A DNA stretch of 64,000 nucleotides from Leptotrichia hongkongensis (GTDB taxonomy: Bacteria; Fusobacteriota; Fusobacteriia; Fusobacteriales; Leptotrichiaceae), in NCBI RefSeq assembly GCF_007990635.1, contig NZ_AP019846.1:248001-312000 (forward strand), written 5' to 3'. The position numbers and the translations under genes were made by a program. Shown one piece after another: positions 33,560-48,270 of the stretch. The notes beneath the pieces are model-generated. The model ran no database searches. It worked only from the letters and a program-made list of their open reading frames with translations, and was not told where the DNA came from. Within the stretch, counting starts at the first letter, position 1, and every line of letters begins with the position of its first letter.

Positions 33560-33567
33560 TGTAAAAA

Positions 33568-33601
33568 GAGCTGTTGTTTTTTAACGGCTCAATTTTATTT
33601 T
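33568..33601 (+). terminator. Terminator after the D,D-carboxypeptidase gene
   Basis: GAGCTGTT / AACGGCTC (one G-T pair), seven-base loop, then AATTTTATTTTTT. Confidence 0.8.
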
Positions 33602-33630
33602 TTAAAATATAATAACAGGAAGGAAATAAA

Positions 33631-34416
33631 ATGTCTATTGGAGTATTTGATTCGGGAATTGGGGGACTTACGGTATTAAAAGAGATTAGAAAAGTATTGC
33701 CAAATGAAAAAATATATTATCTCGGAGATACAGCAAGAGTTCCTTATGGAGAAAAAACAAAAGAACTGATTGTAAGGTACTCAAAAGAAATTGTTGAGTT
33801 TTTGCTGGAAAAAGAAGTAAGTGCTATTGTAGTGGCTTGCAATACAGCTACTGCACTTGCACTAAAGGAATTGAAAGAAACTTTTAAAATACCAATTATA
33901 GGGGTAATAGAGGCTGGAGCAAGAACAGCAATAAATACTACAAAAAGTAATAAAATTGGTGTAATTGGAACGAAAGCAACTATAAAATCGGGGAAATACG
34001 AAGAAGAAATAAAACTTTTTAATACAAAGGCAGAAGTATTTCAGAAGGCATGTCCACTTTTTGTTCCAGCTGTAGAAGAAGGAATTTTAAGCGGTAAGCT
34101 TGTTAATCAGATAATAAAGACATATTTAGATGATTTTGAAGGGAAAGTTGATACATTAATACTAGGATGTACTCATTATCCGCTTTTAAAAGAGGCAATT
34201 GGAAAAATTTATCCAGATATAAAAATAGTGGATCCGGCAAGGGAAACAGCGTTAGATTTGAAAAAAATTTTACAAAAAAATGAATTTTTAAAAAATGATG
34301 CTAAGAAAAATGAAGAAGTAAAATATTATGTAACAGATGGGCAAGAAAAATTTAAAGAAATTGGAATTATGTTTTTGGAAGAAAATATTTCAAAAGTTGA
34401 ATTAGTAAAATTATAA
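33631..34416 (+). CDS. murI: Glutamate racemase
   Basis: 261-residue cofactor-independent racemase making D-glutamate for peptidoglycan. The two catalytic cysteines are in VACNTATA (about 71) and LGCTHYPLL (about 181), with the N-terminal signature GVFDSGIGGLTVLKEI and YLGDTARVPYG. Length is normal. The ribosome site AGGAAGG precedes the ATG. ruvA starts 29 bases downstream, probably in the same transcript. Confidence 0.96.
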   Translation: MSIGVFDSGIGGLTVLKEIRKVLPNEKIYYLGDTARVPYGEKTKELIVRYSKEIVEFLLEKEVSAIVVACNTATALALKELKETFKIPIIGVIEAGARTAINTTKSNKIGVIGTKATIKSGKYEEEIKLFNTKAEVFQKACPLFVPAVEEGILSGKLVNQIIKTYLDDFEGKVDTLILGCTHYPLLKEAIGKIYPDIKIVDPARETALDLKKILQKNEFLKNDAKKNEEVKYYVTDGQEKFKEIGIMFLEENISKVELVKL

Positions 34417-34444
34417 ATTACAAATTTAAAAAGAAAGGGTATAA

Positions 34445-35086
34445 ATGTTTGAATATATTTTAGGAAAATTAGCAGTGAAGAAAGTTGATTATGTTGCTTT
34501 AGAGATAAATGGCTTGGCATATAAAATTCATATATCCCTAAAAACATTTGAAAAAATAGATAATATTGGAAGCAACGAAAAATTATACATTTATACAAAT
34601 GTAAAAGAAGATGATATTTCTCTTTACGGATTTAAAACACAAAATGAAAGGGAACTTTTTAAAGCGCTAATAAGTATAAGTGGAGTAGGACCAAAACTTG
34701 CAATTGCAATACTTTCTACTTTTAATATGAGAGAAATTATTGATATTGTTACAGAGAACGAATCAAAAATCTTTACAAGAGTTCCAGGACTTGGAATAAA
34801 AAAAGCTCAAAAGATAATACTGGATTTGAAAGATAAAGTGAAAAAACTGGATGTAGTAGAAGTAATTGAAGAAAATAGCAATATATTAAGTGGAAAACTG
34901 ATAACTTCAGAAGTATCAGATTCTAGAGTTTTGTTAATGAAGGAAGATTTGAAATTGGCTTTAGAATCTTTGGGATATGTAAATACAGATGTTTCTAAAT
35001 GGATAAAAGATAGTGAGTTAGTTCAAATAAAAGATATTAGTGAAGCTATAAAAATAGTTTTGCAGAAAATTCAAAATAAAAAATAA
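34445..35086 (+). CDS. ruvA: Holliday junction branch migration protein RuvA
   Basis: 213-residue DNA-binding subunit of the RuvAB branch-migration complex in recombination and repair. The N-terminal OB fold (MFEYILGKLAVKKVDYVALE), the tandem helix-hairpin-helix region (LISISGVGPKLAIAILS and VPGLGIKKAQKIILDLK) and a C-terminal RuvB-binding domain (LALESLGYVNTDV) are all present. ruvB and ruvC are not adjacent. Two terminators follow in the gap before the convergent small gene. Confidence 0.94.
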   Translation: MFEYILGKLAVKKVDYVALEINGLAYKIHISLKTFEKIDNIGSNEKLYIYTNVKEDDISLYGFKTQNERELFKALISISGVGPKLAIAILSTFNMREIIDIVTENESKIFTRVPGLGIKKAQKIILDLKDKVKKLDVVEVIEENSNILSGKLITSEVSDSRVLLMKEDLKLALESLGYVNTDVSKWIKDSELVQIKDISEAIKIVLQKIQNKK

Positions 35087-35111
35087 AAAATATAAACTTT
35101 ATTTTAAAATA

Positions 35112-35163
35112 AGAGTGGAATATTAGTTAATTACTTTTTACATATTTTCACTCTAATTTTTTT
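35112..35163 (+). terminator. Terminator after ruvA
   Basis: AGAGTG / CACTCT outer stem with additional AATAT / ATATT pairing, followed by AATTTTTTT. Confidence 0.7.
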
Positions 35164-35184
35164 AGATTGACTATAATTACAAAA

Positions 35185-35238
35185 ATGTACCTTTAAACAT
35201 TGCAATTTTTATTGCTTTGTCTACAGGTACATATTTTT
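35185..35238. terminator. Bidirectional terminator, ATGTACC type
   Basis: ATGTACC / GGTACAT followed by ATTTTTTT on the plus strand, and by TTTTTGTAATT on the minus strand. Serves ruvA and the convergent small gene. Same stem as 29518-29565. Confidence 0.7.
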
Positions 35239-35254
35239 TTAATTTACATAATTT

Positions 35255-35359
35255 TATAGTAAAATTTATTTAAAACTAAACTCAAAAGCTCTGACTATTT
35301 TACTCAAACCATAAATTTATATAATTTTAGCAGTTTAATTCAAAATAGGTTTGAGTATA
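35255..35359 (-). repeat. Dispersed ~105-bp intergenic repeat, copy 3
   Basis: Reverse-complement copy of the repeat at 21576-21684, very close to 47019-47123. Lies in the 316-bp gap after ruvA together with two terminators. Confidence 0.85.
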
Positions 35360-35402
35360 ATTTATATAAATTTTTATGAATAATAATTTTATAAATTTAA
35401 TT

Positions 35403-35615
35403 TTATTTGGGATGTCTTTTATTAATTCTTTTTTCTTGAGGTTTTGTTGCTTGTTTTCTTGTTGGCTTTTTGTTTATCGATTTTCTTTTTGGTTGAACAA
35501 TCATTGTTTTTGGCTTTGGTCTTTGCTCTTTAGGCGGAATGGCAAAAGATACAATTGACACTCCTGTTATTCCTAGAAATGCAACCATTTTCTTAAAAGT
35601 ATTTTTCATATTCAT
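35403..35615 (-). CDS. Small basic exported protein
   Basis: 70-residue protein of unknown function. The start is ATG 35615, with GGAG 8 bases upstream. A signal peptide (MKNTFKKMVAFLGITGVSIV, cleavage near SFA) is followed by a 43-residue mature part very rich in Lys, Arg, Pro and Gln (IPPKEQRPKPK, RKSINKKPTRKQATKPQEKR). The extreme positive charge suggests binding to nucleic acid, LPS or acidic polymer outside the membrane, but no family is recognised. It is convergent with ruvA and bounded by a bidirectional terminator. Confidence 0.65.
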   Translation of the reverse strand: MNMKNTFKKMVAFLGITGVSIVSFAIPPKEQRPKPKTMIVQPKRKSINKKPTRKQATKPQEKRINKRHPK

Positions 35616-35764
35616 ATTAATCATCTCCATTTCAATTTTTATTTTTATGCTCTTACCTTTTGAACAAATACATAATACCATTTAGTTTTGACAAAAATAT
35701 GTAAATTTTATGTCTTTTTTGTGAAATTTAAAACCAAAAACATTAATTAAAAATTAAAAATATA

Positions 35765-35793
35765 TTGACAAAAATATAATAATATAGTATTAT
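35765..35793 (+). promoter_or_regulatory. Sigma70-type promoter of the DnaJ-FHA locus
   Basis: TTGACA, 17-base spacer, TATTAT, about 40 bases before the J-domain gene. It is the best promoter seen upstream of the 35.8-46.9 kb locus. Confidence 0.75.
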
Positions 35794-35834
35794 TTAATTA
35801 AAATTAAAGAAAAGTTAATAAAGAAGGAAGAGAA

Positions 35835-36269
35835 ATGGATTATTACAAAATACTGGAAGTACCTGAAAATGCAGATATTTCTGAAATAAAAAAGAAATAT
35901 AGAAAAATGGCAATGAAATATCATCCTGACAGAAATGCAGGAGATGAAAAAGCTGCAAAGAAATTTCGAGAAATAACGGAGGCTTATGAAGTTCTTTCAA
36001 ATGAGAAAAAAAGAAAAGAGTATGATTGTAAAAGGAAAAATGGGAACAATCAGCCAAAAAATAAAAATAATAAGGAAAATTTTAAAAGTAAATCTTCTCA
36101 AAATAATTTTACTTTTGGAAAAGAATTTTTTAAGAGTGCAGCTGAAATGAAAGGAATGTTTGAAAACAGTTTTGGGCTAGATAAAATTGGGAAAAATAAA
36201 GCAAAAGCTGAGAAGGAAAGTGTGAAAAGTAGATTTGAGAGTTTTTTTGATATGAAAGAGAAAAAGTAA
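35835..36269 (+). CDS. J-domain (DnaJ-like) protein
   Basis: 144-residue co-chaperone with an N-terminal J domain (1-66: [23 protein letters not shown] at 30-32) and a short Lys/Asn-rich C-terminal tail with a small helical element. It lacks the Gly/Phe, zinc-finger and substrate-binding domains of DnaJ proper, so it is a class C J protein that would stimulate a dedicated Hsp70. A divergent Hsp70-like gene lies 7 kb downstream on the same strand (43005). It is the first gene of the FHA/PP2C/kinase locus, directly behind a strong promoter. Confidence 0.88.
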
Positions 36270-36285
36270 GAGGGGGAAATTAGAA

Positions 36286-37113
36286 ATGTTGTGGGGAATT
36301 AGAAGAAGTTTTACAAATTTGGGAAATATTTTTAGGCGTCCATTTGGGCGTGGGAGCATTTATAGGCTGGAAAGACTTAGAAGCGTGGCACGGCTTGGAA
36401 AAAATAGAGAAAATGGAAAAATTGACGATGAAATGAGTAAAATTAGTGTAGAAAAGGGAATTAAAAAATATGAAAAACGGAAATTGAATGCAAAAAATCA
36501 AAAAAGTTACAAATTTTTAAATATAAAAAATATTTTGATAATGACAGTTTTAATATTTACATTTATTTTTGTACATTTTTCAGGGTATTCTACAAAAAGT
36601 CTTTATTTTTCAATTTTTATTTATATTGGAGTTACACTTTACCTGCTTATTGTGGAAAGATTTTTTGAAAAGGTGGAAGTTGAGGAGGAAATCAAAAATA
36701 TAAAGCATGAGAGAGAAAGGGAGCATAACGTATTTTTAGAAAGGGTAAAGGAAATTGAGGATTTGGAGAAAAAGCAGATTGAGCATATATTTTTGAAGGA
36801 TTCAGAAGATTATGATATGAAAATTTGGAAAATTGGGAGGGCAACATCGCTTCTTATTGGTAAGCAATCGCCAAGAAACAGGGTGGATATAGATGTAAGT
36901 GAAGGGATTTATTCAAATTTAGTCAGCAGGGCTCATGGAATATTAAATCGTGTCAACGGAATCTGGTATTATGAGGATTTAGGCTCACAAAATGGAAGTG
37001 GAATTGAAAGAAGTTTAGATAAACGGAAAATAAAGCTGAAAAAAAATATACCAGTAAAAGTGGAATCGGGAGACATAATTTATTTAGCGACTACAAAAAT
37101 ATTATTAAAATAA
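36286..37113 (+). CDS. Membrane protein with cytoplasmic C-terminal FHA domain
   Basis: 275-residue protein. A basic N-terminal region of about 80 residues precedes two transmembrane segments (about 83-99 and 105-123), a charged coiled linker (about 125-165), and an FHA domain (about 185-273). The FHA domain has the phosphothreonine-binding pattern: IGRATS, SNLVSRAHGILNRVNG, YYEDLGSQNGSGI. It would recognise phosphothreonine on partners made by the kinase encoded downstream. The ribosome site AGGGGG is 9 bases before the ATG. It overlaps no neighbour but is 16 bases from the J-domain gene, consistent with an operon. Confidence 0.85.
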   Translation: MLWGIRRSFTNLGNIFRRPFGRGSIYRLERLRSVARLGKNRENGKIDDEMSKISVEKGIKKYEKRKLNAKNQKSYKFLNIKNILIMTVLIFTFIFVHFSGYSTKSLYFSIFIYIGVTLYLLIVERFFEKVEVEEEIKNIKHEREREHNVFLERVKEIEDLEKKQIEHIFLKDSEDYDMKIWKIGRATSLLIGKQSPRNRVDIDVSEGIYSNLVSRAHGILNRVNGIWYYEDLGSQNGSGIERSLDKRKIKLKKNIPVKVESGDIIYLATTKILLK

Positions 37114-37146
37114 ATCTATAAATAAAAAAGAAAGGAAAATTTTAAA

Positions 37147-37791
37147 ATGAAATTGGATAGATGTAAAAATGGGCATATATACGATGTTTCAAGATACAGT
37201 TCGTGTCCTTACTGCAAATCAGAAGGACTGGAAACAGAAAATCTGGATGATAAAATTAATCTAGTTGAAGAAATGAAAGATGAAGATAGAACAACAGCCT
37301 ACTGGTCTAAAGACAGCACCGTAGATCCAGTCGTAGGCTGGCTTACGTGCATTGAAGGGCATGATAAGGGAAAAGACTACAGAATTGTGAGTGAACGCAA
37401 CTTTGTTGGGCGTGGAGAAAATATGGATATACAAATTTTAGGAGATACTATGATTTCCAGAAAAAACCATTGTTCAATAAGTTATAATCCAAAACAGCGA
37501 AAATTTATGCTAACTCCCGGAGATTCTAATGGATTAATTTATCTGAATGGAGAAGCAGTTTACAACACAGTAGAATTACGAGCTTATTCAGTAGTGGAAA
37601 TGGGGGAAAGTAAGTTTGTATTTGTGAATTTGTGCGGAGATTATTTTGACTGGGAAAAGGAAAAATCAAGAGAGGAAAGCGTGAAAAGAAAATACGAAAA
37701 TTTAAATGATGAAAAAATTGTGAAAAATACGAATTTTCAGAATAAAAATAATGATTTAGAAGTAAAAATCGAAGATTATGAAGAAATTTAA
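37147..37791 (+). CDS. FHA-domain protein with N-terminal zinc ribbon
   Basis: 214-residue soluble protein. The N-terminus has a Cys/His cluster resembling a zinc ribbon (CKNGH then SSCPYC; C6, H10, C20, C23). The FHA domain (about 60-150) carries FVGRGENMDIQ and MISRKNHCSISYN, with a less canonical final block (GDSNGLIYLNGE). The C-terminal 50 residues are charged and probably disordered. With the preceding membrane FHA protein it forms a likely pair of phosphothreonine readers. The next gene is separated by 391 bp. Confidence 0.82.
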   Translation: MKLDRCKNGHIYDVSRYSSCPYCKSEGLETENLDDKINLVEEMKDEDRTTAYWSKDSTVDPVVGWLTCIEGHDKGKDYRIVSERNFVGRGENMDIQILGDTMISRKNHCSISYNPKQRKFMLTPGDSNGLIYLNGEAVYNTVELRAYSVVEMGESKFVFVNLCGDYFDWEKEKSREESVKRKYENLNDEKIVKNTNFQNKNNDLEVKIEDYEEI

Positions 37792-37880
37792 TAAATTTAT
37801 ACTAAACCCAATATTTTCAAATGATTTAAGATATAATTTTTATTTTTTAAACAGGATTGAATATAAATTAATCCGTCGGA

Positions 37881-37945
37881 GCATTTTTATGTGCTGGCAA
37901 AACTGTCTGAGCATAGCGAGTTTTTTGTCAGTGTAGAAAAATGTC
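37881..37945 (+). repeat. Long hairpin, GAGC..GCGAG loop family, copy 3
   Basis: Arms 37881-37902 and 37921-37945 pair with several G-T wobbles, so the structure is stronger as RNA than as DNA. The loop CTGTCTGAGCATAGCGAG matches the loops at 13362-13451 and 13513-13611. It lies in the 391-bp gene-free gap between the second FHA gene and the PP2C gene. Confidence 0.5.
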
Positions 37946-37963
37946 GTAGACTAGCCATAGGTT

Positions 37964-37992
37964 GTAGGATTTGCGGCGATGAGCAATCCTAC
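37964..37992. repeat. Perfect 8-bp inverted repeat
   Basis: GTAGGATT / AATCCTAC with a 13-base GC-rich loop, directly after the long hairpin. The stretch just before it (TAGACTAGCCATAGGTT) recurs with minor changes on the opposite strand at 21724-21746. Confidence 0.5.
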
Positions 37993-38182
37993 GAAAATAA
38001 AAGAAAAAATATAATATAAAATAGGAAAAACTGTTATTAAACAAAATAATCTAATACTAAATCTTATTAGAAAATAGAATACAATTCAAAATTTACTAGA
38101 TATTAACCTTTTTAATGGGGAATAGTATAAAAATATATTTTATAAAGTTGAATTAATCAAAAATAGAGGGAGAAATTGAGAA

Positions 38183-40552
38183 ATGAGGAAAGATGAGGCA
38201 AAATTTATTACGGAATTTTTGAGTGAGGCTGGGACGAAGGCTGAAAATAACGATTATTTTGGGTATGTTTTGCTGGATAATTATGCGATTTGGGCTGTGG
38301 CGGATGGATTTGATGAGGAAGAAGGGGCAAAAGTTGCGGCAAGGATTGCTGTGGAATCTGCGATTGAATATTTTATGCTACGTCCACGATTTAATTATGA
38401 TGTAATAAAGGAAATGTTGGATTATGCCAATCTGAAAGTTAAGGAAAAACAGGAAGAAACTCAGAAATATTCTCTTATGCACACTTCCCTTTTAATCGTA
38501 ATAAGCAACTATAATTCAATTTTATATGGAAATATCGGAAATACAAGGTTTTATCATATTAGAGGTGGATATATCATTTCTCAAAGCAGAGATGACACGA
38601 TAGCACAGCTTTTGGTGGACGAAGAGGCATTGAATGTATCGGATATGAGATTTCACAGGCAAAGAAATGATTTGCTGCAGGCAATTGGGGATTTTGGGAA
38701 AATTAAGCCAAATATTATAAAAAAACCTGTAGAACTTATGGAAAAAGATGTTTTTTGCTTGACGACTGTAGGATTCTGGGAAAATATTGATGAGCATGAT
38801 ATGGAAAACGACTTTTCCAGATTTGAGGATAAGAAGCAATGGTTAAATTCATTGGAAAAACGGATACTTGCTTCACTTAGGGATAATATCGAAAATTATA
38901 CGATTGCACAGGTAGAAGTAGGTGCTGTAGCAAGTCCAGAGCCGATGGAAAAGGACAAAAGGAAACTTATTAAAAAAATAATACTTGTAATGCTGATTAT
39001 TGTTGTAATTATTTTGTTTGTTGTAATTTGGAATGTGAAAAGGCGAAACGGTATTTTGCAAGCGGCAACACAGTATGAAAAGTTGGCGGATGAGGAGATT
39101 TTAAAGAAAAATTTTAATAATTCAATTGATAATTTGAAACTTGAAATAGGAGAATACGAAAAATTAAAGCCAAAAAGCAGGGGTATAATAGGATTTCTTA
39201 CAAATGCTGAGAAAAAAAGAGCTGATGCAAGTAAGAAAATTGATGAAATAAATAAGAAAATTGGAGAAACTGAGAAGATTAAAAAGGCATTTTCGGATAT
39301 TAATGAGGGAAATGAGATGTTTAACAGCGGAAATTATGACGAAGCAAACGTAAAGTATCAGCAGGCTAAGTATAATCTGAATGACAACAGTTATAAACGG
39401 GATGAACTGAACACGGAAGAGATTTTAACTACATTGGATTCACGAATAAATTCAACTGTGAAATTAAAGGAAGCTAAGGCTTTGGAAACGGCTGGAGATA
39501 CAGCGGTTAATGAAGGAAGCTACAATTTGGCAAAGGTTAGTTATAAAAATGCGGCTGATATGTATTTGGCAAACGGAAGGGCAGATTATGTTTCGCAAGT
39601 TGAGAAAAAGCTGGAGGAAATAACGGATAAGGAAAAAACAGCATATAATGGGGCAATGTTTGCTGAAAATAAAGGGGATTCGCTAGCACAAAGCAATATT
39701 AATTCTTCAAAAGAGGCATATTATCAGGCACGACAGATGTATCAGACGCTTGGAGATACTGTGAAAGTGGGAGAAATTGACAATAAGATACAGGAACTTA
39801 ATTCCCAGCAAAATGCTGATTTGCAGACTGCTAACAATCTCGTTCAGGAAGGGCTTTCGCAAATAACTGCTAATAATCCAGCACAAGCAATAAATATTCT
39901 AACACAGGCTAAAAATATTTATCAGAAAATGAAGGATACGAATAATGCAAATGTTGTGAGTAAATACATAAATCAGGCACAGGAATTTATTAAATTTGAA
40001 AGCCAGAATGCTGAAAAGTTGAAAACACAGGAAATGGAATATTCGGAAAAGTTAAGACAGCAGGAAATTCAGATGCAACAGCAACTGCAAATAAAAGAGG
40101 CTGAGATCAAGGCACAGCAGGAAGAAATGGAGCGGGAGAGGCAAAGGCGTGAAGAAATAACAAGGAAAATGGAAAATGCATCAAATCTGGAAATGCAGGC
40201 TGATCAGTTGGCTATAAACGAAAGATTTGAAGAAAGTATTTCAAAATATGAGGAAACGAAGAAATTTCTTGAAGAAGTAAATGCAGATGGGAATTTTGGA
40301 AATCAAATGTATAAAATTGAAAATTTGAATAAAAAAATTGAAAAAAGTGAGGGATATTTGCTAAAGAAAAAAGCAGAAGATGATTTTAAGAATAAAAAAT
40401 GGAAGGGAGCTGTGGAAAAATTTACGCAGGCAAAGGAAAAGCTGGAAAAAAGCGGTACAAAACAAAACGAAATAGCCGAAATTGAGAAAAAGTTGAAAAA
40501 GTCTGAGAAAAAGGCGAATAAAAAATGGTGGCAGTTTTGGAAAATTTTTTAA
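38183..40552 (+). CDS. Membrane PP2C-type phosphatase with long coiled-coil/TPR-like region
   Basis: 789-residue protein. Residues 1 to about 255 form a PP2C-type phosphatase domain: ENNDYFGY and AVADGFDEEEGAKVAARIA (metal-ligand Asp residues, DG), YGNIGNTRFYHIRGG in place of the usual GDSR block, and RDNIENYTIAQ at the end. A single transmembrane helix (about 264-282) follows. The remaining 500 residues are helical, with repeated units of the form A-x-x-E-G-NY-A-x-x-x-Y (LETAGDTAVNEGSYNLAKVSYKN and similar), a Gln/Glu-rich coiled coil (about 610-665) and a basic tail. It presumably reverses phosphorylation by the kinase at 41939. It opens the second part of the locus; the following gene is 15 bases away. 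Confidence 0.85.
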   Translation: MRKDEAKFITEFLSEAGTKAENNDYFGYVLLDNYAIWAVADGFDEEEGAKVAARIAVESAIEYFMLRPRFNYDVIKEMLDYANLKVKEKQEETQKYSLMHTSLLIVISNYNSILYGNIGNTRFYHIRGGYIISQSRDDTIAQLLVDEEALNVSDMRFHRQRNDLLQAIGDFGKIKPNIIKKPVELMEKDVFCLTTVGFWENIDEHDMENDFSRFEDKKQWLNSLEKRILASLRDNIENYTIAQVEVGAVASPEPMEKDKRKLIKKIILVMLIIVVIILFVVIWNVKRRNGILQAATQYEKLADEEILKKNFNNSIDNLKLEIGEYEKLKPKSRGIIGFLTNAEKKRADASKKIDEINKKIGETEKIKKAFSDINEGNEMFNSGNYDEANVKYQQAKYNLNDNSYKRDELNTEEILTTLDSRINSTVKLKEAKALETAGDTAVNEGSYNLAKVSYKNAADMYLANGRADYVSQVEKKLEEITDKEKTAYNGAMFAENKGDSLAQSNINSSKEAYYQARQMYQTLGDTVKVGEIDNKIQELNSQQNADLQTANNLVQEGLSQITANNPAQAINILTQAKNIYQKMKDTNNANVVSKYINQAQEFIKFESQNAEKLKTQEMEYSEKLRQQEIQMQQQLQIKEAEIKAQQEEMERERQRREEITRKMENASNLEMQADQLAINERFEESISKYEETKKFLEEVNADGNFGNQMYKIENLNKKIEKSEGYLLKKKAEDDFKNKKWKGAVEKFTQAKEKLEKSGTKQNEIAEIEKKLKKSEKKANKKWWQFWKIF

Positions 40553-40567
40553 AAGAAAGGAGGAAAG

Positions 40568-41782
40568 ATGGTAAAAAATATAAAATTAAATACTTTCTTT
40601 TTTAAGGAATATGCACAAATTGCTGAAAAAAATACTTATTCGGCATATATTCCAAATGGAAGCAAGGGAATATGGTGTATTGCTGACCTTGATGAAAAGA
40701 TAGATGAAAAAATGCAGAAAAAGTTAGAAATATTTCAAAAAATTGAAAATAGTAATGTTGAAAATAAGAAAATTGACAAGATAAATTTAGCAAAAATTGG
40801 AGTTCATAAAATTATTGAAAAATATTTGGGAAATAATGAATTTTCTCTAGAAAATATAAAACAGATGATACAATCTTCCATTGATAAAGTGATTTTTGAG
40901 AAAACAAAATTATATAAAGTTCATAAAGTTGAAAAAAATTTTGATTTAAAAAATTTTTATTCGCAAATTGTTATTATTATTGAAAAAAATAATATGATTG
41001 TTGGAAATATGGGGAAAACTGAATTTGTTTTGTATAGGGAAAATAGAATTGTCGAAAAGATAAGTGGTGAGCAAGTCAAAAAAATAAGACTGAAAAAACA
41101 TGATTATTTGCTGGCTGGGAATTCTGAATTTTGGAAAGTTGTTAATGAGAGTGAAATTGAGGAGGTTTATGTTGATAGGAAAAGTAAATTAAATGTCGAG
41201 CAGAATTTAAGTGAACAGATAAAGGCTAGTGAGAAAAAATTGGGAAAAGTGATACCATTTTTGTCGATTTTTGTTGAAGATATTGAAATGGAAAAGAATT
41301 ATAAATTGTTAGAAAAAGAAATTAATGAAAAAAATCAAAAACAGGAAAAAGTTGTAAAATATATATTTTTGGCTGTAATATTTGTGTTTATGCTTTTTTC
41401 TGTGGGAAAAAATATTCAAAAAAGTAATTTTGAAAACAAGAAAAACGAAAATGTCAAAAATGTAATGGCTAAGAAGATTAGTGAAAAATCAAATTTATTG
41501 GAAAATAATTTATATGTAAAAGCAGAAATAGAAAATAATAAAATTGAACAGGGAAATTTAGCAAATGTTAAAGTTGAAGTTAAGAAAACTGCTGGAAATG
41601 AAAATGCAGTTGAAAATCAAAATGTGGAAACAGGGAATAAAGAAATAGAAAAGAACCATGCAAAAAATTTGGAAATTACTCAAAATATTATAGAAACTAA
41701 AGAGAAAAGAGCTAAAAAATTAAATAATTCAAGAATAAAAAGAAAGTTTCTAAAAATAAAAAATATAATAGAAAAAATTTGA
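40568..41782 (+). CDS. Degenerate PP2C-like membrane protein (probable pseudophosphatase)
   Basis: 404-residue protein whose N-terminal 240 residues follow the pattern of the preceding PP2C domain but have lost the metal ligands: the Asp-containing ENNDYF becomes EKNTYS, and VADGFDE becomes IADLDE. The matching strand VGNMGKTEFVLYRENRIV confirms the relationship. A transmembrane helix (about 259-278, YIFLAVIFVFMLFSVG) precedes a Lys/Asn/Glu-rich tail. It is probably catalytically inactive and could act as a regulator or scaffold. The tail may extend through a frameshift into 41779-41982. Ribosome site AGGAGG. Confidence 0.72.
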   Translation: MVKNIKLNTFFFKEYAQIAEKNTYSAYIPNGSKGIWCIADLDEKIDEKMQKKLEIFQKIENSNVENKKIDKINLAKIGVHKIIEKYLGNNEFSLENIKQMIQSSIDKVIFEKTKLYKVHKVEKNFDLKNFYSQIVIIIEKNNMIVGNMGKTEFVLYRENRIVEKISGEQVKKIRLKKHDYLLAGNSEFWKVVNESEIEEVYVDRKSKLNVEQNLSEQIKASEKKLGKVIPFLSIFVEDIEMEKNYKLLEKEINEKNQKQEKVVKYIFLAVIFVFMLFSVGKNIQKSNFENKKNENVKNVMAKKISEKSNLLENNLYVKAEIENNKIEQGNLANVKVEVKKTAGNENAVENQNVETGNKEIEKNHAKNLEITQNIIETKEKRAKKLNNSRIKRKFLKIKNIIEKI

Positions 41783-41982
41783 ATGCAGATAATAGAAATT
41801 TTAAGAAAAATTATAAAGTAAAAAGTAATGGAATCTCACAACTTGAAAAGGAAATTGAGAAAAACTGGGAAGTTCTTGGGCGTGATAGGAACGGGAATAA
41901 TTTTGTGAAAAATAGAGAATTTAAAAGGGAAAATAAGAATGGATTTTTTATTAAAGGGAACAATATTGAATGCGAAGTATAA
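41779..41982 (+). CDS. Short reading frame, possible tail of the preceding gene
   Basis: 67 codons from a TTG with no ribosome site, overlapping the stop of the PP2C-like gene and the start of the kinase gene. Composition (Asn, Lys, Glu, Arg) matches the tail of the upstream protein, so it may be the true C-terminus displaced by a one-base error in the A-rich run around 41755-41775, rather than an independent gene. Not a recognised family. Confidence 0.3.
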   Translation: MNADNRNFKKNYKVKSNGISQLEKEIEKNWEVLGRDRNGNNFVKNREFKRENKNGFFIKGNNIECEV

Positions 41983-42838
41983 AATTTTAAATTATGTAGC
42001 TAAAAGTGATTTTTCCAATATTTATATATGTGAAGATAGACAAGGGGAAAAAGTAATTATTAAAGAATGTTATCCTTCAGAAATTGTTATGAGAAATGAT
42101 AAAGAGGTTTTCACTGAAAAGTACAAGAAGGATTTTGAAAATTTGAAAGGATGTTTTTGGAAAGAAAAATGTATTTTGGAGAAATTTTTGAAAAAATCTA
42201 AAAGGAGGAAACAGAGATTTGTAGATGATGTTGTTAAACTTGTGGATTTTTTTAGTGAAAATGGGACAAATTATATTGTTACTGAATATTTTCGTGCAGT
42301 TACCTTGAAAAAATATATTTTGAAAAATAGGATAAAAAATGGAAAAATGAGGATAAATCATATTTTGGAAATATTTTTTAAAATTGCCGAAGTAGTTTGT
42401 AAAATTCATAAAAAGGGAATTATTCATTGTGATTTGAAGCCTTCTAATATTTTGATTGATATTAGGGGAAATATCAGGATTATTGATTTTGGAGCGAGCT
42501 TGAAAAAGAAAGAAAAAGTTGAGTTTGTTAAGGTTTCGGACGGATATTCGCCGATTGAGATTTATTCAGAGAAAGTAGAGATTGATGAAAGAACGGATGT
42601 TTATTCACTTGCGGCACTTTTATATTTTATGCTTTGTGGAGTGAAAGTGGATGGGGCGATTAAGAGGTTTTATAAGGCTGAACTGGAGTTTGGAAGAGAA
42701 GTTATTTTAGAATTTGAGAAGGTTGGGAAATTTAAGGAAGTGGAAGAAGTTATACAAAAAGGGCTGGAATTTGACAGGCAGAAAAGGTTTGGAAGTGTTA
42801 GGGAAATGATTGAAAAATTGCGAAAAATTTTTGCTTAA
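41939..42838 (+). CDS. Serine/threonine protein kinase, non-RD type
   Basis: 299-residue Hanks-type kinase without a membrane segment or PASTA repeats. Present: the ATP-anchoring Lys42 in VIIKECYPSEIV, catalytic loop HCDLKPSNIL (Asp and Asn kept, but the Arg of HRD replaced by Cys), DFG in IIDFGASLKK, and the P+1 region GYSPIEIYSEK. Unusual: the glycine-rich loop is absent (VAKSDFSNIYIC), and the activation-loop arginine partner is missing, so activity may not need activation-loop phosphorylation. It sits between PP2C-type and Hsp70-like genes. Likely job: phosphorylating threonines read by the two FHA proteins of this locus. Confidence 0.88.
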   Translation: MDFLLKGTILNAKYKILNYVAKSDFSNIYICEDRQGEKVIIKECYPSEIVMRNDKEVFTEKYKKDFENLKGCFWKEKCILEKFLKKSKRRKQRFVDDVVKLVDFFSENGTNYIVTEYFRAVTLKKYILKNRIKNGKMRINHILEIFFKIAEVVCKIHKKGIIHCDLKPSNILIDIRGNIRIIDFGASLKKKEKVEFVKVSDGYSPIEIYSEKVEIDERTDVYSLAALLYFMLCGVKVDGAIKRFYKAELEFGREVILEFEKVGKFKEVEEVIQKGLEFDRQKRFGSVREMIEKLRKIFA

Positions 42839-42841
42839 AAT

Positions 42842-42916
42842 AAAAGCTTTTTAATAGATTTAATTTTATAATGATGAACTGAAATAGTTTCAATAAAATC
42901 TATGTTTATAGCTTTT
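42842..42916 (+). repeat. Two-part hairpin between kinase and Hsp70-like genes
   Basis: AAAAGCT / AGCTTTT outside and ATAGATTT / AAATCTAT inside. The right arm runs into TTTATTTAG. It could be a weak terminator or a processing site inside the locus. Confidence 0.5.
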
Positions 42917-43004
42917 TATTTAGATTTTAAATTAATAAATCAAAACCAAAACTTGAATTTAAAGAAAGTATTCATTATTAATGACTAAAGGGGAAAAGGT
43001 AAAA

Positions 43005-45668
43005 ATGAGATTATTTTATGAAGAGGAATTGCGAAGAAAATCTTATTATGAGATGTATCAGATTGCAATTGAGGAACATTTGGTAAATGTACATGTGGAA
43101 ACGCCCACGAGAGAGGAGCTTATCTCACTTTTGATGAAATATAGGGGAGTCAAGGAAAATTACTGTATTGACAAGTATAATAAAAACGGGCTTGTGAATG
43201 TTCAGGAACTTTTTGATAATAAACTTGGCGAGAGAATTCATCATGAGAATAAGATACGGGTGCCACACAAGATTATTTTATACAAGGAGCTTGATTTGAT
43301 GAGGGAAGACAATTATAAAATTGAGATTCCTGAAAATGTCAGCAGTGCAAATGTCTTTCTTATAAATGCAAATAATTACTTGTGTGGGATTTTCCAGCTG
43401 GAAAAGGATTTGAATAGCAGGAATAAGTATTTTTTAATTAGTAAAAAGGAATTTTTTAGAGTCGAAACGCTGAGAAATAATAAATTTTCATTTTTGTTCT
43501 TTAAAGAAAATGACTTGAAATTTATTCATAAGTTTTATAATTTGAAGGAAAATGAAATGACACCGCTTTATCCATATCAGATGGACTATTATAAAGTTGA
43601 AATTGAAAATTTTGTTGTGAAAAATCTGGAAACTACGAATACGCCACTTTGTATTGATTTTGGAACAGTAAATACGGCTCTTGGGGCATATCTGGATAAA
43701 AATTATGTGAAGGATTTGCCCACTAATGATATTTTGAATGGAAATGTTGTAATAGATGCGATAAATTATGTAAAATTTGATGATGGAGAGAGACATTATC
43801 GTGAGATTTTTCCAACATTAGTTTATGTTGATAATTGTAGCGATGCTAATAATATTAAGTATTCATTTGGGTACGATGTAGTAAGAAAGCTAGAAAGAAA
43901 TGACTATATTGTCAATGGCTCAATTTTTTACAGCTTGAAAAGGTGGGTGCATGAACATAATAAACTTGAGAAAATTAATGATGAGTTTGGAAATATTCTG
44001 TATGTAAAAAGAAAGGATATAATAAAGGCGTACTTAAAATATATTGTGAACCGTGCGGAATATATGTTTAAATGTAAGTTTAAAAAAATTCATGCTTCCA
44101 GCCCTGTAAAATTGAAGGAGCAGTTTTTGACAATGTTTCAGGAAATTTTCATGATGGAAAATAAATTTAATAAAAATCAGAATTCTGAAATTTCTGAAAA
44201 AAATATAATTTCAAGCGAGAAAAATTATGAATATGAAATTATTCGTGAAAATGCTATGGATGAAGCAATTGCAGTGTTGTACAATACAATTGAGATACAG
44301 ATAAGGAAGGGAAAATATAAGGAGAATGAAGAATATAGTGCATTAATTATTGACTGTGGTGGCGGGACGACGGATTTGGCAGCTTGTAAATATGTGATTA
44401 GTAAGGACAAAATTTCATATTATCTGGATATAAGAACGAGCTTTGAAAATGGGGATGAGAATTTTGGTGGAAATGACTTGACTTACAGGATTATGCAGTT
44501 TTTGAAAATTGTACTTGGGGCAAAGTATTCTGAAGATAGGGTTGTTTCTATTAATGATTTGATAAAATATGACAATGATATGATTTACAAGGTAATTGAT
44601 GACAGCGGTGTTGAGAAGATTTTTGAAAATATGAATTTGGAATATGAAAAGTATGAAAATGTAATCCCTACAAAATATTCACAGTTTGAGAATAAAATGA
44701 GTGAGGAATATCAGAAAATACGGAATAACTTTTATATGTTATGGGAAGCCGCTGAAAATCTTAAAAAAGAATTTTTTACATCCGATGGAAGACTGCGGAC
44801 ACGTTTTGATGTGCCTAGAAATTATGAAAAACGGAATGATATTCATATAACGCAGTTGAAAAGCTGGAAAATTCATATTTATAAAAATGGAATATTTACC
44901 ACAATAACAGATTATCCAAGACATATTTTTACGATAAAAGAAATTGAAAAAATCGTAAAAGCTGATATTTACGGAATGCTCAGAAAATTTTTGAATACAT
45001 ATTACAAGGAAGGGCTGCTTTTTGAATATTCATTAATAAAATTAAGCGGACAGTCAACGAAAATCAGTACATTTCAGGAAGTACTAAAGGAATTTGTGCC
45101 GGGAAAGATGATTGAATACAAGGAACTGAGCCATCGTGATGATTACGAGCTAAAACTGAACTGTCTGGATGGAGCTATAAAATATCTGGATTATAAGCGT
45201 TTTGGACATATAGATGTGGAAATTGTGAATGAAGTTCCGCTTGTACCATATTCTGTGTGGGTGGAAAAATACGATGGGGAAAAAGTGGAAATGATACAGA
45301 CTTCACGAAAGGCTGATATTCTGATTGGACAAATTGACAAAAAGATTTCTGCTGAAGAACTAAAAATTTATGTTTATACTGCGGAAGGCGAATTGAAAAA
45401 AGAAATGATTTATAAAAATGAGGATAATTATGAAGAAATGGACGCACAGGAAATTTTGCCTGAATTTACAAATATAATTTCTCAAAATGATACTGATACA
45501 ATTCAAAACAGCACAGTAAGATTTTTTGTTTATACTGATTTGAACAACTGGGGATTTTTTGTCGTTCCAATCCAAAGAAAATCAGATCAGCTTTATCTTG
45601 GACGAAAGGAATATTTCCCTTATGAAGATAATTTAAGTGAAAATTCCTATTTTGACGGAAACCACTAA
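43005..45668 (+). CDS. Divergent Hsp70-like (actin-fold) ATPase
   Basis: 887-residue protein with an Hsp70/actin-type ATPase core behind an N-terminal extension of about 210 residues. Nucleotide motifs: phosphate 1 PLCIDFGTVNTALGAY (about 213), phosphate 2 ALIIDCGGGTTDLAAC (about 446), adenosine LIKLSGQSTKISTF (about 680). A long insertion and an unusual C-terminus replace the canonical DnaK substrate-binding and lid domains. ATG 43005 is preferred because AAGGGGAAAAGG lies just upstream; the ATG at 42981 has no ribosome site. With the J-domain protein encoded at 35835 it may form a dedicated chaperone pair, possibly controlled by the kinase and phosphatase encoded alongside. Substrates are unknown. 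Confidence 0.85.
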   Translation: MRLFYEEELRRKSYYEMYQIAIEEHLVNVHVETPTREELISLLMKYRGVKENYCIDKYNKNGLVNVQELFDNKLGERIHHENKIRVPHKIILYKELDLMREDNYKIEIPENVSSANVFLINANNYLCGIFQLEKDLNSRNKYFLISKKEFFRVETLRNNKFSFLFFKENDLKFIHKFYNLKENEMTPLYPYQMDYYKVEIENFVVKNLETTNTPLCIDFGTVNTALGAYLDKNYVKDLPTNDILNGNVVIDAINYVKFDDGERHYREIFPTLVYVDNCSDANNIKYSFGYDVVRKLERNDYIVNGSIFYSLKRWVHEHNKLEKINDEFGNILYVKRKDIIKAYLKYIVNRAEYMFKCKFKKIHASSPVKLKEQFLTMFQEIFMMENKFNKNQNSEISEKNIISSEKNYEYEIIRENAMDEAIAVLYNTIEIQIRKGKYKENEEYSALIIDCGGGTTDLAACKYVISKDKISYYLDIRTSFENGDENFGGNDLTYRIMQFLKIVLGAKYSEDRVVSINDLIKYDNDMIYKVIDDSGVEKIFENMNLEYEKYENVIPTKYSQFENKMSEEYQKIRNNFYMLWEAAENLKKEFFTSDGRLRTRFDVPRNYEKRNDIHITQLKSWKIHIYKNGIFTTITDYPRHIFTIKEIEKIVKADIYGMLRKFLNTYYKEGLLFEYSLIKLSGQSTKISTFQEVLKEFVPGKMIEYKELSHRDDYELKLNCLDGAIKYLDYKRFGHIDVEIVNEVPLVPYSVWVEKYDGEKVEMIQTSRKADILIGQIDKKISAEELKIYVYTAEGELKKEMIYKNEDNYEEMDAQEILPEFTNIISQNDTDTIQNSTVRFFVYTDLNNWGFFVVPIQRKSDQLYLGRKEYFPYEDNLSENSYFDGNH

Positions 45669-45683
45669 AAAAGGAAGAGAAAT

Positions 45684-46943
45684 TTGAGAAAAAAAGATGA
45701 GATAATTTGGATAATGCCCGTAATTTTTATTTTTATTATTCTTTTTATGATAAAATTCTGTACTCCCAAAATTAATCAGAAATATGTTATTGAAAAAATA
45801 ACACGTGAAAATCTTGAACTTTTTGTGGACATGAAAGGAACTGTTGTTGCACATAATATTACTAAAATTGGACTGGATGTGAATTTATCCATTGATGATG
45901 TTTATTACAAAGCTGGAGATTTTGTAAAAAAGGGCGATGTAATAGTGAAATTTAGCGATTATCAGAAAAATAGATTGAATGAAAAACGTATGTTATTAGT
46001 GATTAAAAATCGGGAATTACGAAATTTGAAAAAACAAAAGGAATTGGGAGCTGATGTTAGTCAGAAAATTCAGGAATTACGTGGAGAAATATCAGGATTG
46101 GAAATTGAAATTAAAGATGAAATGAGAAATACAAGATTGGTTCAGAGAAGTGTAAGAAGTCCATTTGACGCTTATATTGCGAAAATTAATGCAGTGAAAG
46201 GTGGAATTACAAATAAAAATGAGCCTATTTTGATTCTTGCTAAAAGGAAAGATTTAAAAATAGTTAGTGAAAGCGTGAAAAGTGATAAAGTTAAAAATCT
46301 GAAAATTGGGAATGTGGCTAAAATTAATATTTTTAGGAGAGAAAATAAAAAGATTGGGGAAGAGAAATCGCTTGAAGAATTAGTTGAAATTAAAAATGAT
46401 AAGAATAAGGAAATTTTGCGAGATAAGGATAAAGTAAAAGAGAATTCAGATTTATTTTCTGAAAAAAAAGTTATTGAAGCAGAATTAATTAAGATTAATA
46501 AAATTGGGGATATGAATATGTTTGAGTTTTTGCCAACATTATTTAAGGATTTGTTTTTAAACGAGCAAGTGGATATTCGTGTGATTTATAAGAAAAAAGA
46601 GAATATTCTAGCTGTTCCTAAAAAGGCTGTTATTTTTAAAAATCAGAAAAGTTATATTTATTTGATTGATAAGAATAATTTGGTTAAAGAAAAGGAAGTG
46701 TTTATTGGGATGAATAACGGAGAGAAAATTGAAATTTTTGGAATGGATATTGGAGAAGGAATGGAGATTATTGGGAATCCTGATGATAAAATTGGGAATA
46801 ATGTGATTGTGGAACGAAGGAATATTAAGGATGAGGAAATTGAAAAGAGGAAAAAATTGGAAAGGTTAGAGAGGGAAAATGAAAAGCTGGGGAATAGAAT
46901 GGATGAGAATGAGAGGGAGATTATCAGACTGAAAAGAAAATAA
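45684..46943 (+). CDS. HlyD-like periplasmic adaptor / membrane-fusion protein
   Basis: 419-residue protein with one N-terminal transmembrane helix (about 9-28), a barrel-sandwich/lipoyl-like domain (FVDMKGTVVAHNITKIGLDV, YKAGDFVKKGDVIVKFSDYQ), a helical hairpin (about 95-145), the return strand VRSPFDAYIAKINAVKGG, a beta-barrel region with a charged insertion, and a C-terminal Lys/Glu coiled coil. This is the order of RND/ABC adaptor proteins, but no transporter or outer-membrane channel gene is adjacent. It starts at TTG, with AAGGAAGAG upstream, 15 bases after the Hsp70-like gene. As last gene of the locus, it may link the phospho-signalling/chaperone system to the envelope. Confidence 0.75.
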   Translation: MRKKDEIIWIMPVIFIFIILFMIKFCTPKINQKYVIEKITRENLELFVDMKGTVVAHNITKIGLDVNLSIDDVYYKAGDFVKKGDVIVKFSDYQKNRLNEKRMLLVIKNRELRNLKKQKELGADVSQKIQELRGEISGLEIEIKDEMRNTRLVQRSVRSPFDAYIAKINAVKGGITNKNEPILILAKRKDLKIVSESVKSDKVKNLKIGNVAKINIFRRENKKIGEEKSLEELVEIKNDKNKEILRDKDKVKENSDLFSEKKVIEAELIKINKIGDMNMFEFLPTLFKDLFLNEQVDIRVIYKKKENILAVPKKAVIFKNQKSYIYLIDKNNLVKEKEVFIGMNNGEKIEIFGMDIGEGMEIIGNPDDKIGNNVIVERRNIKDEEIEKRKKLERLERENEKLGNRMDENEREIIRLKRK

Positions 46944-46968
46944 AATCAGGATGTTTTTATCCTGATTT
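46943..46968 (+). terminator. Terminator of the 35.8-46.9 kb locus
   Basis: Perfect 10-bp stem AAATCAGGAT / ATCCTGATTT with loop GTTTTT, starting at the stop codon of the adaptor gene. Confidence 0.85.
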
Positions 46969-47018
46969 CCAGCTATATTTTTTAAATTTGTGAAAAATAA
47001 AAGAAAAAGTTTTTAATT

Positions 47019-47123
47019 TATACTCAAGCCTATTTTAAATTAAACTGCTAAAATTATATAAATTTATGGTTTGAGTAAAATAGTCATAGCTTTTGAGTTT
47101 AGTTTTAAATAAGTTTTACTATA
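47019..47123 (+). repeat. Dispersed ~105-bp intergenic repeat, copy 2
   Basis: Same strand as 21576-21684. Its right end (AGTTTTACTATA) overlaps the last bases of the convergent CapA-like gene, supplying its stop-codon region. Confidence 0.85.
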
Positions 47124-48270
47124 GATCATTAGTCTTAGTAATTTTTCCTTCTTCGCTGATAGAAAGCCCATTTCCATTTGGAAAATCAGATTTATTTAAG
47201 GAAATTATCTTTTTTATTGCTAATTTTTCTGAATCTATAAAAGGACCTAAACTTTTGTAAGTTTGTCTTACTGGAATAATTTCTCCAGAAATAAAATCTC
47301 CTTTATTATTTATTTTGATTTTAAAAATAGGTGCAATTCCCATTGAACCAGAAACGTTTATTTTTCCAAAAGTTGCAAAATTTCCTCCGCTATATGAAAT
47401 AAATTTATTTTTGTAAAGTTCGACTGCTCTTGTAACGTGAGGGCCTTGCCCAAAGATTACATCAGCTCCATTGTCTATAGCAAAATGGGCAAACTCATAA
47501 ACATTTCCTCTATCTTCGCCATGAAAAATTTCATGTCTTTTAGTAATGTGTTCAGCATTAGCACCTTCGGCTCCACCATGAAACATAACAATTACAATAT
47601 CAACTTTTGATTTTAATTCAGAAATAAGTTTTTTTGCATAATTATAATCATTTAGTTTTACAGTAGCTGAATTTGGAGAAAATGAAATAAATCCAAATTT
47701 TTTTCCATCTTTTTCTAAAACAGCACTTTCAGTAATATCTTTAATTCCAGAATATTTTATTCCTAAATTATCAAGATTTTTCATAGTTTCCTTAATTCCA
47801 ATTTCTCCAAAATCATTGCTATGGTTATTGGCAATGCTCAAATAATCAAATCCAGCCTGTTTTAGATATGTCCCGTATCTTGAAGGCATACGAAAGACAT
47901 AACATACATTTGGATTATTACAGCTTTTGGGAGTTCCGCCTGTATCAAATAGTGTTCCTTCCAGATTTCCTGCAGTTATGTCAGCATTTTTCAGTATATT
48001 TTGCGTGTTTTTAAGAATATTGGCATCATTTTCAGGAAGCAGATATTCAAAAGGGTAATTTGAGCCAAGCATTATATCTCCAACGCCAATTATTGTAAAT
48101 TCTGTTTTTTCATTGTATTTATCATTTTTAGGAGTATCTGATTCTTTAGTTTTTAATATTTTTTCTGAATTAATGAATTTCTTCCAAAAGTTTTTAAAAT
48201 TGTGATTTGTAGTAATTATAGCAAGTAGAGAAATTAAAATAGTAAACAAAATTAATAACTTTTTTTTCAT
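47119..48270 (-). CDS. CapA family metallophosphatase-like protein
   Basis: 383-residue exported or membrane-anchored protein (hydrophobic segment about residues 4-22). Family motifs: IGVGDIMLGSNYPFEY, AGNLEGTLFD, IANNHSNDFGEIG, IVMFHGGAEGAN and GQGPHVTRAVELYKNKF. These metal-binding blocks define the CapA/PgsA family linked to poly-gamma-glutamate capsule synthesis, although most stand-alone members have unknown substrates. No capB or capC genes are here, so polymer synthesis is not implied. Ribosome site AAAGGATG. Its 3' end touches a dispersed repeat. Confidence 0.88.
   Translation of the reverse strand: MKKKLLILFTILISLLAIITTNHNFKNFWKKFINSEKILKTKESDTPKNDKYNEKTEFTIIGVGDIMLGSNYPFEYLLPENDANILKNTQNILKNADITAGNLEGTLFDTGGTPKSCNNPNVCYVFRMPSRYGTYLKQAGFDYLSIANNHSNDFGEIGIKETMKNLDNLGIKYSGIKDITESAVLEKDGKKFGFISFSPNSATVKLNDYNYAKKLISELKSKVDIVIVMFHGGAEGANAEHITKRHEIFHGEDRGNVYEFAHFAIDNGADVIFGQGPHVTRAVELYKNKFISYSGGNFATFGKINVSGSMGIAPIFKIKINNKGDFISGEIIPVRQTYKSLGPFIDSEKLAIKKIISLNKSDFPNGNGLSISEEGKITKTNDL

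Follow-up and report, generated by a model that had tools for sequence, protein, structure and literature searches.

What process is served by eight genes of Leptotrichia hongkongensis that read in the same direction and encode an Hsp70-like ATPase, a J protein, two FHA proteins, two PP2C-like proteins, a Ser/Thr kinase and a HlyD-like adaptor? The genes lie at positions 35835–46943 of a stretch of 64,000 nucleotides, referred to below as the window, which covers 248–312 kb of contig C1 (NZ_AP019846.1) in a 2.28-Mb genome. A preliminary description had proposed a membrane-associated chaperone machine gated by threonine phosphorylation, and had noted that no secretion genes were present. The latter statement is correct for the window but not for the genome, since genes for a tube protein (family F9), a VgrG-like hub, a DUF4280 cap and a protein of family F8 are situated elsewhere. 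A phosphorylation gate acting with a chaperone ATPase is still the best reading, but not as a stand-alone device, because the module clusters and co-occurs with injection-system parts. The locus very probably serves a phage-tail-like injection system, similar to the type VI secretion system (T6SS), as its regulatory and chaperone module; the other parts of the system are encoded elsewhere in the genome. The results computed directly are the co-inheritance of the module with tube, hub and cap, the tube fold of F9, the Pfam domains of hub and cap, and the family motifs of the Hsp70-like protein (HSP70L) and the J protein.

Co-inheritance was determined in two phyla, and the pattern was seen in both. 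Of 261 genomes from the order that includes Lysinibacillus, 33 gave a match for HSP70L, 33 for F8 and 33 for DUF4280, and the 33 genomes were identical in all three cases. Among 60 fusobacterial genomes, HSP70L was found in 26, F8 in 29, DUF4280 in 29 and the VgrG-like gene in 27; the 26 genomes with HSP70L had F8 in 26 cases, DUF4280 in 25 and the VgrG-like gene in 24. Fisher tests against HSP70L gave 5e-14 for F8, 1e-11 for DUF4280 and 2e-11 for the VgrG-like gene, values that overstate independence because the genomes are related.

Gene neighbourhoods gave a similar picture. Of the 20 fusobacterial HSP70L stretches fetched first, eight contained F8 (~716 aa), nine F9 (~145 aa) and nine F7 (~260 aa), usually just upstream, and additional stretches yielded further such neighbours; the fusobacterial order is F8-F9-F7-J-FHA-FHA-PP2C-kinase-HSP70L. 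A scan for F8 across 84,980 species genomes returned 333 encoding loci, of which the best 80 were kept. These are mostly titled as Firmicutes genera, with 53–58 % identity over nearly the full length; three loci of fusobacterial type are closer, at 69–72 %. The usual Firmicutes order is kinase, F8, F9, J, FHA, FHA, PP2C, PP2C-TPR, F10, F12, HSP70L, F7. Among these best 80 loci HSP70L was present in 69, PP2C in 75, F9 in 68, J in 56, the two FHA proteins in 60 and 61, and the kinase in 62; at least five of these seven families were found in 64 loci, counts in which 19 loci shorter than 22 kb are included and genes hidden by the simple open reading frame (ORF) caller are scored as misses. HSP70L was present in all nine genomes of F8 loci that were tested. 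The co-conservation check set beforehand therefore came out in favour of a shared set: the genes are not scattered but are conserved together from the Fusobacteriota to the Firmicutes.

Hub and cap genes are also found beside the module. In Lysinibacillus sphaericus the genes 3′ of F7 encode, in turn, an unnamed protein, VgrG-like proteins, a pentapeptide-repeat protein, an Imm11-like protein (below cut-off), DUF4280 and SUKH-3, and proteins clustering with the VgrG-like family lie 3′ in five other Firmicutes stretches (L203, L204, L207, L208 and L209). VgrG-like and DUF4280 genes are both within 13 kb of HSP70L in seven genomes (G001, G006, G009, G027, G037, G041 and G053). Within the genus, second copies of the kinase, VgrG-like, DUF4280 and HSP70L genes follow one another within 10 kb in G006; G001 has a second-copy set of the same four, with HSP70L interrupted by stops; hub, cap and HSP70L stand together in G009, the kinase being outside the stretch fetched; and in G027, from another genus, hub and cap genes directly follow HSP70L.

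The assignment of F9 as a tube was based on the Pfam TssD (Hcp) family and on fold. TssD matched 29 of 36 F9 members at E≤1, though even the best match, at 9.4e-5, fell short of the curated cut-off, and in the 60 genomes the TssD matches were just four F9 proteins, again below cut-off (E 6e-5 to 6e-3). An AlphaFold2 model built from 36 sequences had a predicted local distance difference test score (pLDDT) of 85.6 and a predicted template-modelling score of 0.79. All 18 Foldseek matches to the model at E≤0.001 were Hcp or assembly chains of phage tails or contractile injection systems, and VIA-align gave Z 12.1 to Hcp1 (8z7k) over 118 residues at 2.7 Å and Z 11.4 to 7yw0 and 6bdc. On this model F9 has the Hcp/tail-tube fold. 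PDB profile searches with F9 remained below significance (delta toxin, A1, 0.28; Hcp1 6bdc, A5, 0.16). The VgrG-like protein matches Phage_GPD (39.5 bits, cut-off 30.1) and Phage_base_V (32.8 bits, cut-off 23.8), and aligns with the T6SS VgrG profile at E 2.8e-6. DUF4280, termed PAAR-like in PMC5014421, scored 122.5 bits against a cut-off of 26.3; for an immunity protein of SUKH-3 type encoded nearby the score was 78.2 bits (cut-off 23). The T6SS features found are thus an Hcp tube (F9), a VgrG hub or spike and a PAAR cap (DUF4280).

Two variants of these parts were seen. Ten loci, which we take to be clostridial or Negativicutes from their titles, have two adjacent F9 genes (L129, L132, L166, L172, L173, L175, L178, L179, L185 and L187). 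In Candidatus Frackibacter (L124; G066:C14:69000–107900, L205, L206) two proteins clustering with the VgrG-like family are encoded between F9 and F10, inside the cluster, and one of them has Phage_GPD below cut-off.

The eight genes of the module were confirmed by ORF calls and Pfam as plus-strand reading frames with the domains that had been described. HSP70L (42981–45668, 895 aa) had been read as a divergent Hsp70-like ATPase, and this reading is fair: its family profile aligns with the phosphate-2 motif and GDTxxGG stretch of Escherichia coli DnaK (E 5.9e-6), and a PDB profile search returned just four chains, weakly (E 0.2–2.2), all ATPase domains of DnaK/BiP type. No Pfam family exceeded its cut-off (MreB, 0.017). 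The window protein retains the Hsp70 motifs, and both phosphate motifs (phosphate-1 and phosphate-2) are kept in 83 of the 90 loci with an HSP70L of at least 500 aa. The first ~215 residues and the C-terminal part are unmatched to DnaK, and the C-terminal 260 columns gave no match to the DnaK substrate-binding domain. The J protein (35835–36269, 144 aa; Pfam DnaJ 1.4e-27) consists of a J domain only, with HPD present, and is of class C type as stated previously. The adaptor, a HlyD/MFP (membrane fusion protein)-like protein (45684–46943, 419 aa; Pfam HlyD_3 5.7e-5), is a local add-on: it was seen in 11 of the 20 HSP70L loci from fusobacteria but not in any of the 80 wider-scan loci.

J was labelled in 58 of 83 loci with the HSP70L motifs versus one of seven without, where a J protein hidden by the ORF caller or lying outside the stretch is counted as absent and some genomes give more than one locus. 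Six small-genome loci (L046, L047, L048, L062, L116 and L117) have lost the J protein and the ATPase motifs of HSP70L but retain F8, F9 and the FHA proteins; in the five of six where the kinase was labelled it lacks DFG, as though a single lineage had shed both the chaperone and the switch. L172 is a counter-example, with J kept and the motifs absent. The association is not taken as proof, because the six J-less negatives come from related small-genome species, L172 keeps J, J absence is scored as above and genomes recur.

The signalling genes were examined for motifs of activity. The kinase (41939–42838, 299 aa; Pfam Pkinase 2.2e-27) is non-RD, as had been noted, with HCD in place of HRD; DFG and the ATP-binding lysine are kept. 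Kinases of the fusobacterial loci (L031–L119) have HRD in eight cases, HCD in six and no match in eight, and outside four fusobacterial loci those of the wider scan have HRD in 59 of 60. FHA1tm (36286–37113, 275 aa) has transmembrane-like segments and a C-terminal FHA domain (Pfam 4e-7), and FHA2zn (37147–37791, 214 aa) a Cys-rich, zinc-ribbon-like N terminus and an FHA domain (1.7e-7), in agreement with the two FHA proteins described earlier; transmembrane-like segments and Cys pairs were read by eye. Both domains retain GR, SR..H (SRAH in FHA1tm) and NG.

The 789-aa protein at 38183–40552 (Pfam PP2C_2 2e-9) has the PP2C domain, transmembrane-like segment and long helical tail ascribed to it, the last with a weak TPR match (0.024), but phosphatase activity, which had also been assumed, is improbable. 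The first Asp and ADG are kept and GD, SDG and DN have become GN, TVG and EN, so that several metal ligands are lost and the protein is probably a pseudophosphatase, perhaps a scaffold. The 404-aa membrane protein at 40568–41782 is, as suggested, degenerate: it groups with the PP2C family and has no Pfam match better than 0.8. In relatives (G026, G027 and Firmicutes such as Lysinibacillus) a shorter PP2C of ~280 aa precedes the 789-aa type. Seven copies were inspected, and ADG, GD, S/TDG and DN are all kept in six of them, the seventh (L129) having GN. The shorter gene was not found in the window locus, and a tblastn search of the 391-bp gap with the copies of three relatives did not reveal a remnant. 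In this genome the PP2C proteins that the locus encodes look inactive. The linkage of kinase, PP2C and FHA genes to machine genes in relatives corresponds to the threonine phosphorylation pathway of the T6SS.

From these components a mechanism may be proposed. The system would fire an F9 tube tipped by the VgrG-like hub and the PAAR-like DUF4280 cap, carrying toxins. The kinase would phosphorylate threonines on a membrane platform formed by FHA1tm and the PP2C-TPR-like pseudophosphatase; the FHA proteins would bind the phosphothreonines and license assembly; and the shorter PP2C, present in many relatives' loci and absent here, would reset the switch. Under the direction of J, HSP70L would use ATP hydrolysis for the assembly, loading or dismantling of tail parts, possibly F8, the pair perhaps acting where ClpV would. 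That assembly is gated by phosphorylation is considered likely, and remodelling of tail parts by HSP70L and J is also favoured, slightly less firmly. Recycling of a sheath in particular is doubtful. It is similarly tentative that the system represents a distinct lineage of phosphorylation-gated contractile machines in Gram-positive Firmicutes and diderm Fusobacteriota, in which Hsp70/J replaces the AAA+ protein ClpV for the recycling or assembly of F8, a fused TssB/TssC-like sheath.

In the window genome the machine is found in four places. The first is the module itself. At the second, F8 (C1:704676–706832) lies directly after a ~1335-aa DUF4280 protein (match at 702304–702582) and before an F7 relative. 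The third (1215.6–1222.9 kb) has a divergent F9, F12, a broken F10 and the VgrG-like gene (C1:1221355–1222785), and the fourth has F9 at 1282190–1282621. In G026, on the other hand, the parts are contiguous: F7, the DUF4280 protein, F10, F12, an F9 paralogue, VgrG-like, F8 and F9 are followed by J, FHA, FHA, two PP2C, the degenerate PP2C, kinase, HSP70L, HlyD, one further gene and relatives of three genes at window 32306–35086. These three precede the module in the window and follow it in G026, which places the module at much the same site, with local rearrangement and the other parts elsewhere. We infer that a compact system was later dispersed in the window genome. F10 is split there into three ORFs (L074:1429–2704; C1 about 1216.9–1218.2 kb), either as a pseudogene or by assembly error; intact 425-aa copies are present in G002, G004, G008 and G011.

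Several observations weigh against the assignment to an injection system, or against parts of it. An hhalign comparison of F9 with eight proteobacterial Hcp sequences gave no match (0.32), so the tube claim rests on TssD and fold. The AlphaFold2 model of F8 was poor (pLDDT 54, from 34 rows 52–58 % identical to the first), and no fold was found. F8 resembled TssB weakly, at E 0.0081 as a whole and 0.0021 over the first 230 columns (the best of 63 decoys against whole F8 was 0.022), by a profile–profile method that scores true FHA–TagH pairs at just 0.0086–0.012 and one spurious pair at 0.008; the likeness is suggestive only. No likeness of F8 to TssC was detected (0.27). No relative of TssE, F, G, K, J, L, M or H was found among the families, by a method that is insensitive and scores known homologues at ~0.01. 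Co-inheritance has its exceptions: G013 and G020 carry DUF4280 and the hub without HSP70L or F8; G023 has HSP70L and F8 with no DUF4280 or hub detected; no hub was detected in G031; F8 was detected in G025 and G028 but HSP70L did not reach the search threshold there, although G025 proved to have a divergent copy; and G012 holds just F8 fragments. Whether FHA1tm binds phosphopeptides in many of the relatives is doubtful, because the S[RK]..H pattern is matched in just 39 of 83, as against 73 of 83 for FHA2zn. Finally, the scattered parts and the division of F10 mean that the system may be decaying in the window genome.

F8 is a candidate sheath, and a PDB profile search with A2 returned nothing better than 0.1. 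It may instead be a baseplate or other part, with the F9 tube unsheathed and HSP70L and J merely folding and loading hub–toxin proteins. This non-contracting arrangement, a variant of the injection-system assignment whose odds overlap with it, is rather improbable. It is in line with the lack of a recognized fold in F8 and of a canonical sheath: no VipB (PF05943) exceeded the cut-off in the 60 genomes, one weak frame with stops being observed. It fits less well with the gene order, in which F8 precedes F9 as TssB/TssC precede Hcp in the four T6SS loci fetched, with the weak TssB-like stretch of F8, or with conservation: F8 is 53–58 % identical across phyla in most loci, versus 30–48 % for HSP70L, as expected of a structural part.

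Other searches with F8 and its neighbours were made. The only PDB profile match of F8 with A3, to parvovirus NS1 over ~57 residues (0.0013), was taken as chance, and a search of 50,697 phage and 72,556 plasmid records for F8 gave no match. F7, F10 and F12, which are conserved, and c2 are without a family name, and had no profile match to TssEFGK or TssJLM by a method that also scores known homologues weakly. TssH gave no significant alignment with 13 families (best listed E 0.089); ClpV was not sought in genomes. A PHROGs scan of ten proteins yielded no family of known function. Adjoining F8, on the opposite strand (L190:7256–9373), is a ~700-aa vWA protein that begins with a signal-like sequence and has a transmembrane-like segment, possibly an outer part or sensor. 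Contig L123, filed as the archaeon Candidatus Methanovirga meridionalis, carries a copy whose F8 shares 69 % identity with the fusobacterial query protein, and is probably mis-binned.

A further alternative accepts the same origin, and to that extent overlaps with the injection-system assignment, but holds that in Leptotrichia the system is a dispersed and dying relic and the module now has another task. The parts in four places, the broken F10 and the absent shorter PP2C are all in keeping with this, as are the lack of HSP70L, DUF4280 and hub in G005, G007 and G012 (the last with its F8 fragments) and the six small-genome loci described above. In contrast, F10 is intact in the four genomes named, and HSP70L, F8, hub and cap are present in 10 of the 13 genomes of the genus. 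A relic is considered unlikely.

The stand-alone membrane chaperone machine unrelated to secretion, as envisaged in the preliminary description, agrees with the scan of window genes, which covered these eight, ten that flank them and one further downstream and found no secretion-machine gene, but is very hard to reconcile with the co-occurrence with F8 and DUF4280 in 33 of 33 genomes and with the clustering with tube and hub genes in relatives. Also very improbable is a conflict or immunity system of the type of Kaur et al. 2020, centred on a GAP1-N2 GTPase with HSP70, GrpE, DnaJ, kinase, PP2C and vWA: the domain list given in PMC7159879 is shared, and relatives of the vWA protein beside F8 occur in 46 of 80 loci, but none of the eight genes encodes a GTPase, tubulin or GrpE (no genome-wide search for the GTPase was made), and co-inheritance is with tube, hub and cap genes instead.

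Signals around the module were sought by pattern matching. A promoter-like site on the plus strand (35765–35793; TTGACA-17-TATTAT, 11 of 12 consensus positions) lies ~40 bp 5′ of the first gene, on a consensus match only; in all, 73 promoter-like sites were found versus 61.6 expected. A terminator-like hairpin with its T tail on the minus strand (46942–46969) is situated at the end of the last gene, the only one in 35000–47200, where 2.5 would be expected. With gaps of 391, 156 and 142 bp between some of the genes, a single transcript across all eight is plausible. On the minus strand, a small Lys/Pro-rich protein with a signal-like start is encoded at 35403–35681, and its relatives lie immediately 5′ of the operon in L038, L049 and L050. 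A protein with a PGA_cap (capsule synthesis) domain is encoded 3′ of the operon on the opposite strand (47119–48270), with relatives at the equivalent place in L038, L049 and, in pieces, L050.

How, then, does this system compare with those already known? No description of the gene cluster was encountered in the portions seen of the open-licence PMC literature, a body that does not cover subscription papers and preprints. The passages available of PMC12381145, in which Tc toxins of Paenibacillus are called T6SS, do not touch the present genes. The Hsp70 ATPase motifs and the adjoining HPD J protein are shared with DnaK/DnaJ, from which HSP70L differs in its ~215-residue N-terminal extension and in having no detectable substrate-binding domain. 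The vocabulary of HSP70, DnaJ, kinase, PP2C and vWA is shared with the GAP1-N2/HSP70 conflict systems, but the locus has phage-tail parts in place of GTPase, tubulin and GrpE. The tube fold is shared with extracellular contractile injection systems (Afp, PVC), an Afp baseplate chain being the first-ranked Foldseek match of F9; here, however, the transmembrane-like FHA and PP2C proteins suggest a cell-bound machine, and F8 is without phage or plasmid matches.

The T6SS is described in Gram-negative bacteria. Those with PpkA, PppA and Fha (e.g. Pseudoalteromonas, L233) share with the present system the Hcp-fold tube, VgrG-like hub, PAAR-like cap, immunity genes, Ser/Thr kinase, FHA protein and PP2C, and the place of F8 beside the tube gene. 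By the tests made, the present system differs in having no recognizable TssC/VipB, TssJLM, TssEFGK or ClpV; it has instead an Hsp70-like/J pair, two FHA proteins and a PP2C-TPR-like pseudophosphatase, and it is found in Firmicutes. In the relevant passages of PMC10433429, PpkA phosphorylates Fha or TssL and PppA reverses this, so that assembly is licensed, and ClpV recycles the sheath.

A Gram-positive phage-like translocation system of unknown kind has been inferred from Phage_GPD beside PAAR_H2/DUF4280 (PMC8651086, 2021; PMC5349215, 2016). Hub and cap domains and phylum are shared with it, and here these domains lie near the HSP70L cluster. The present set adds F8, F9, J, FHA, PP2C, kinase, F10, F12, HSP70L and F7 as chassis, and the Fusobacteriota as hosts, no other component being named in the parts of those two papers that were seen. 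The HSP70L/F8/F9 cluster appears to be the chassis of that suspected system. If this is true, the suspected system would gain not just a chassis but also a switch worked by phosphorylation and a motor of chaperone type. It would do so in fusobacteria and in the tractable genera Lysinibacillus, Paenibacillus, Brevibacillus and Clostridium, with a knock-out list and a target for cryo-EM (cryogenic electron microscopy) at hand, and the cluster raises the new question of an Hsp70/J machine dedicated to a secretion device.

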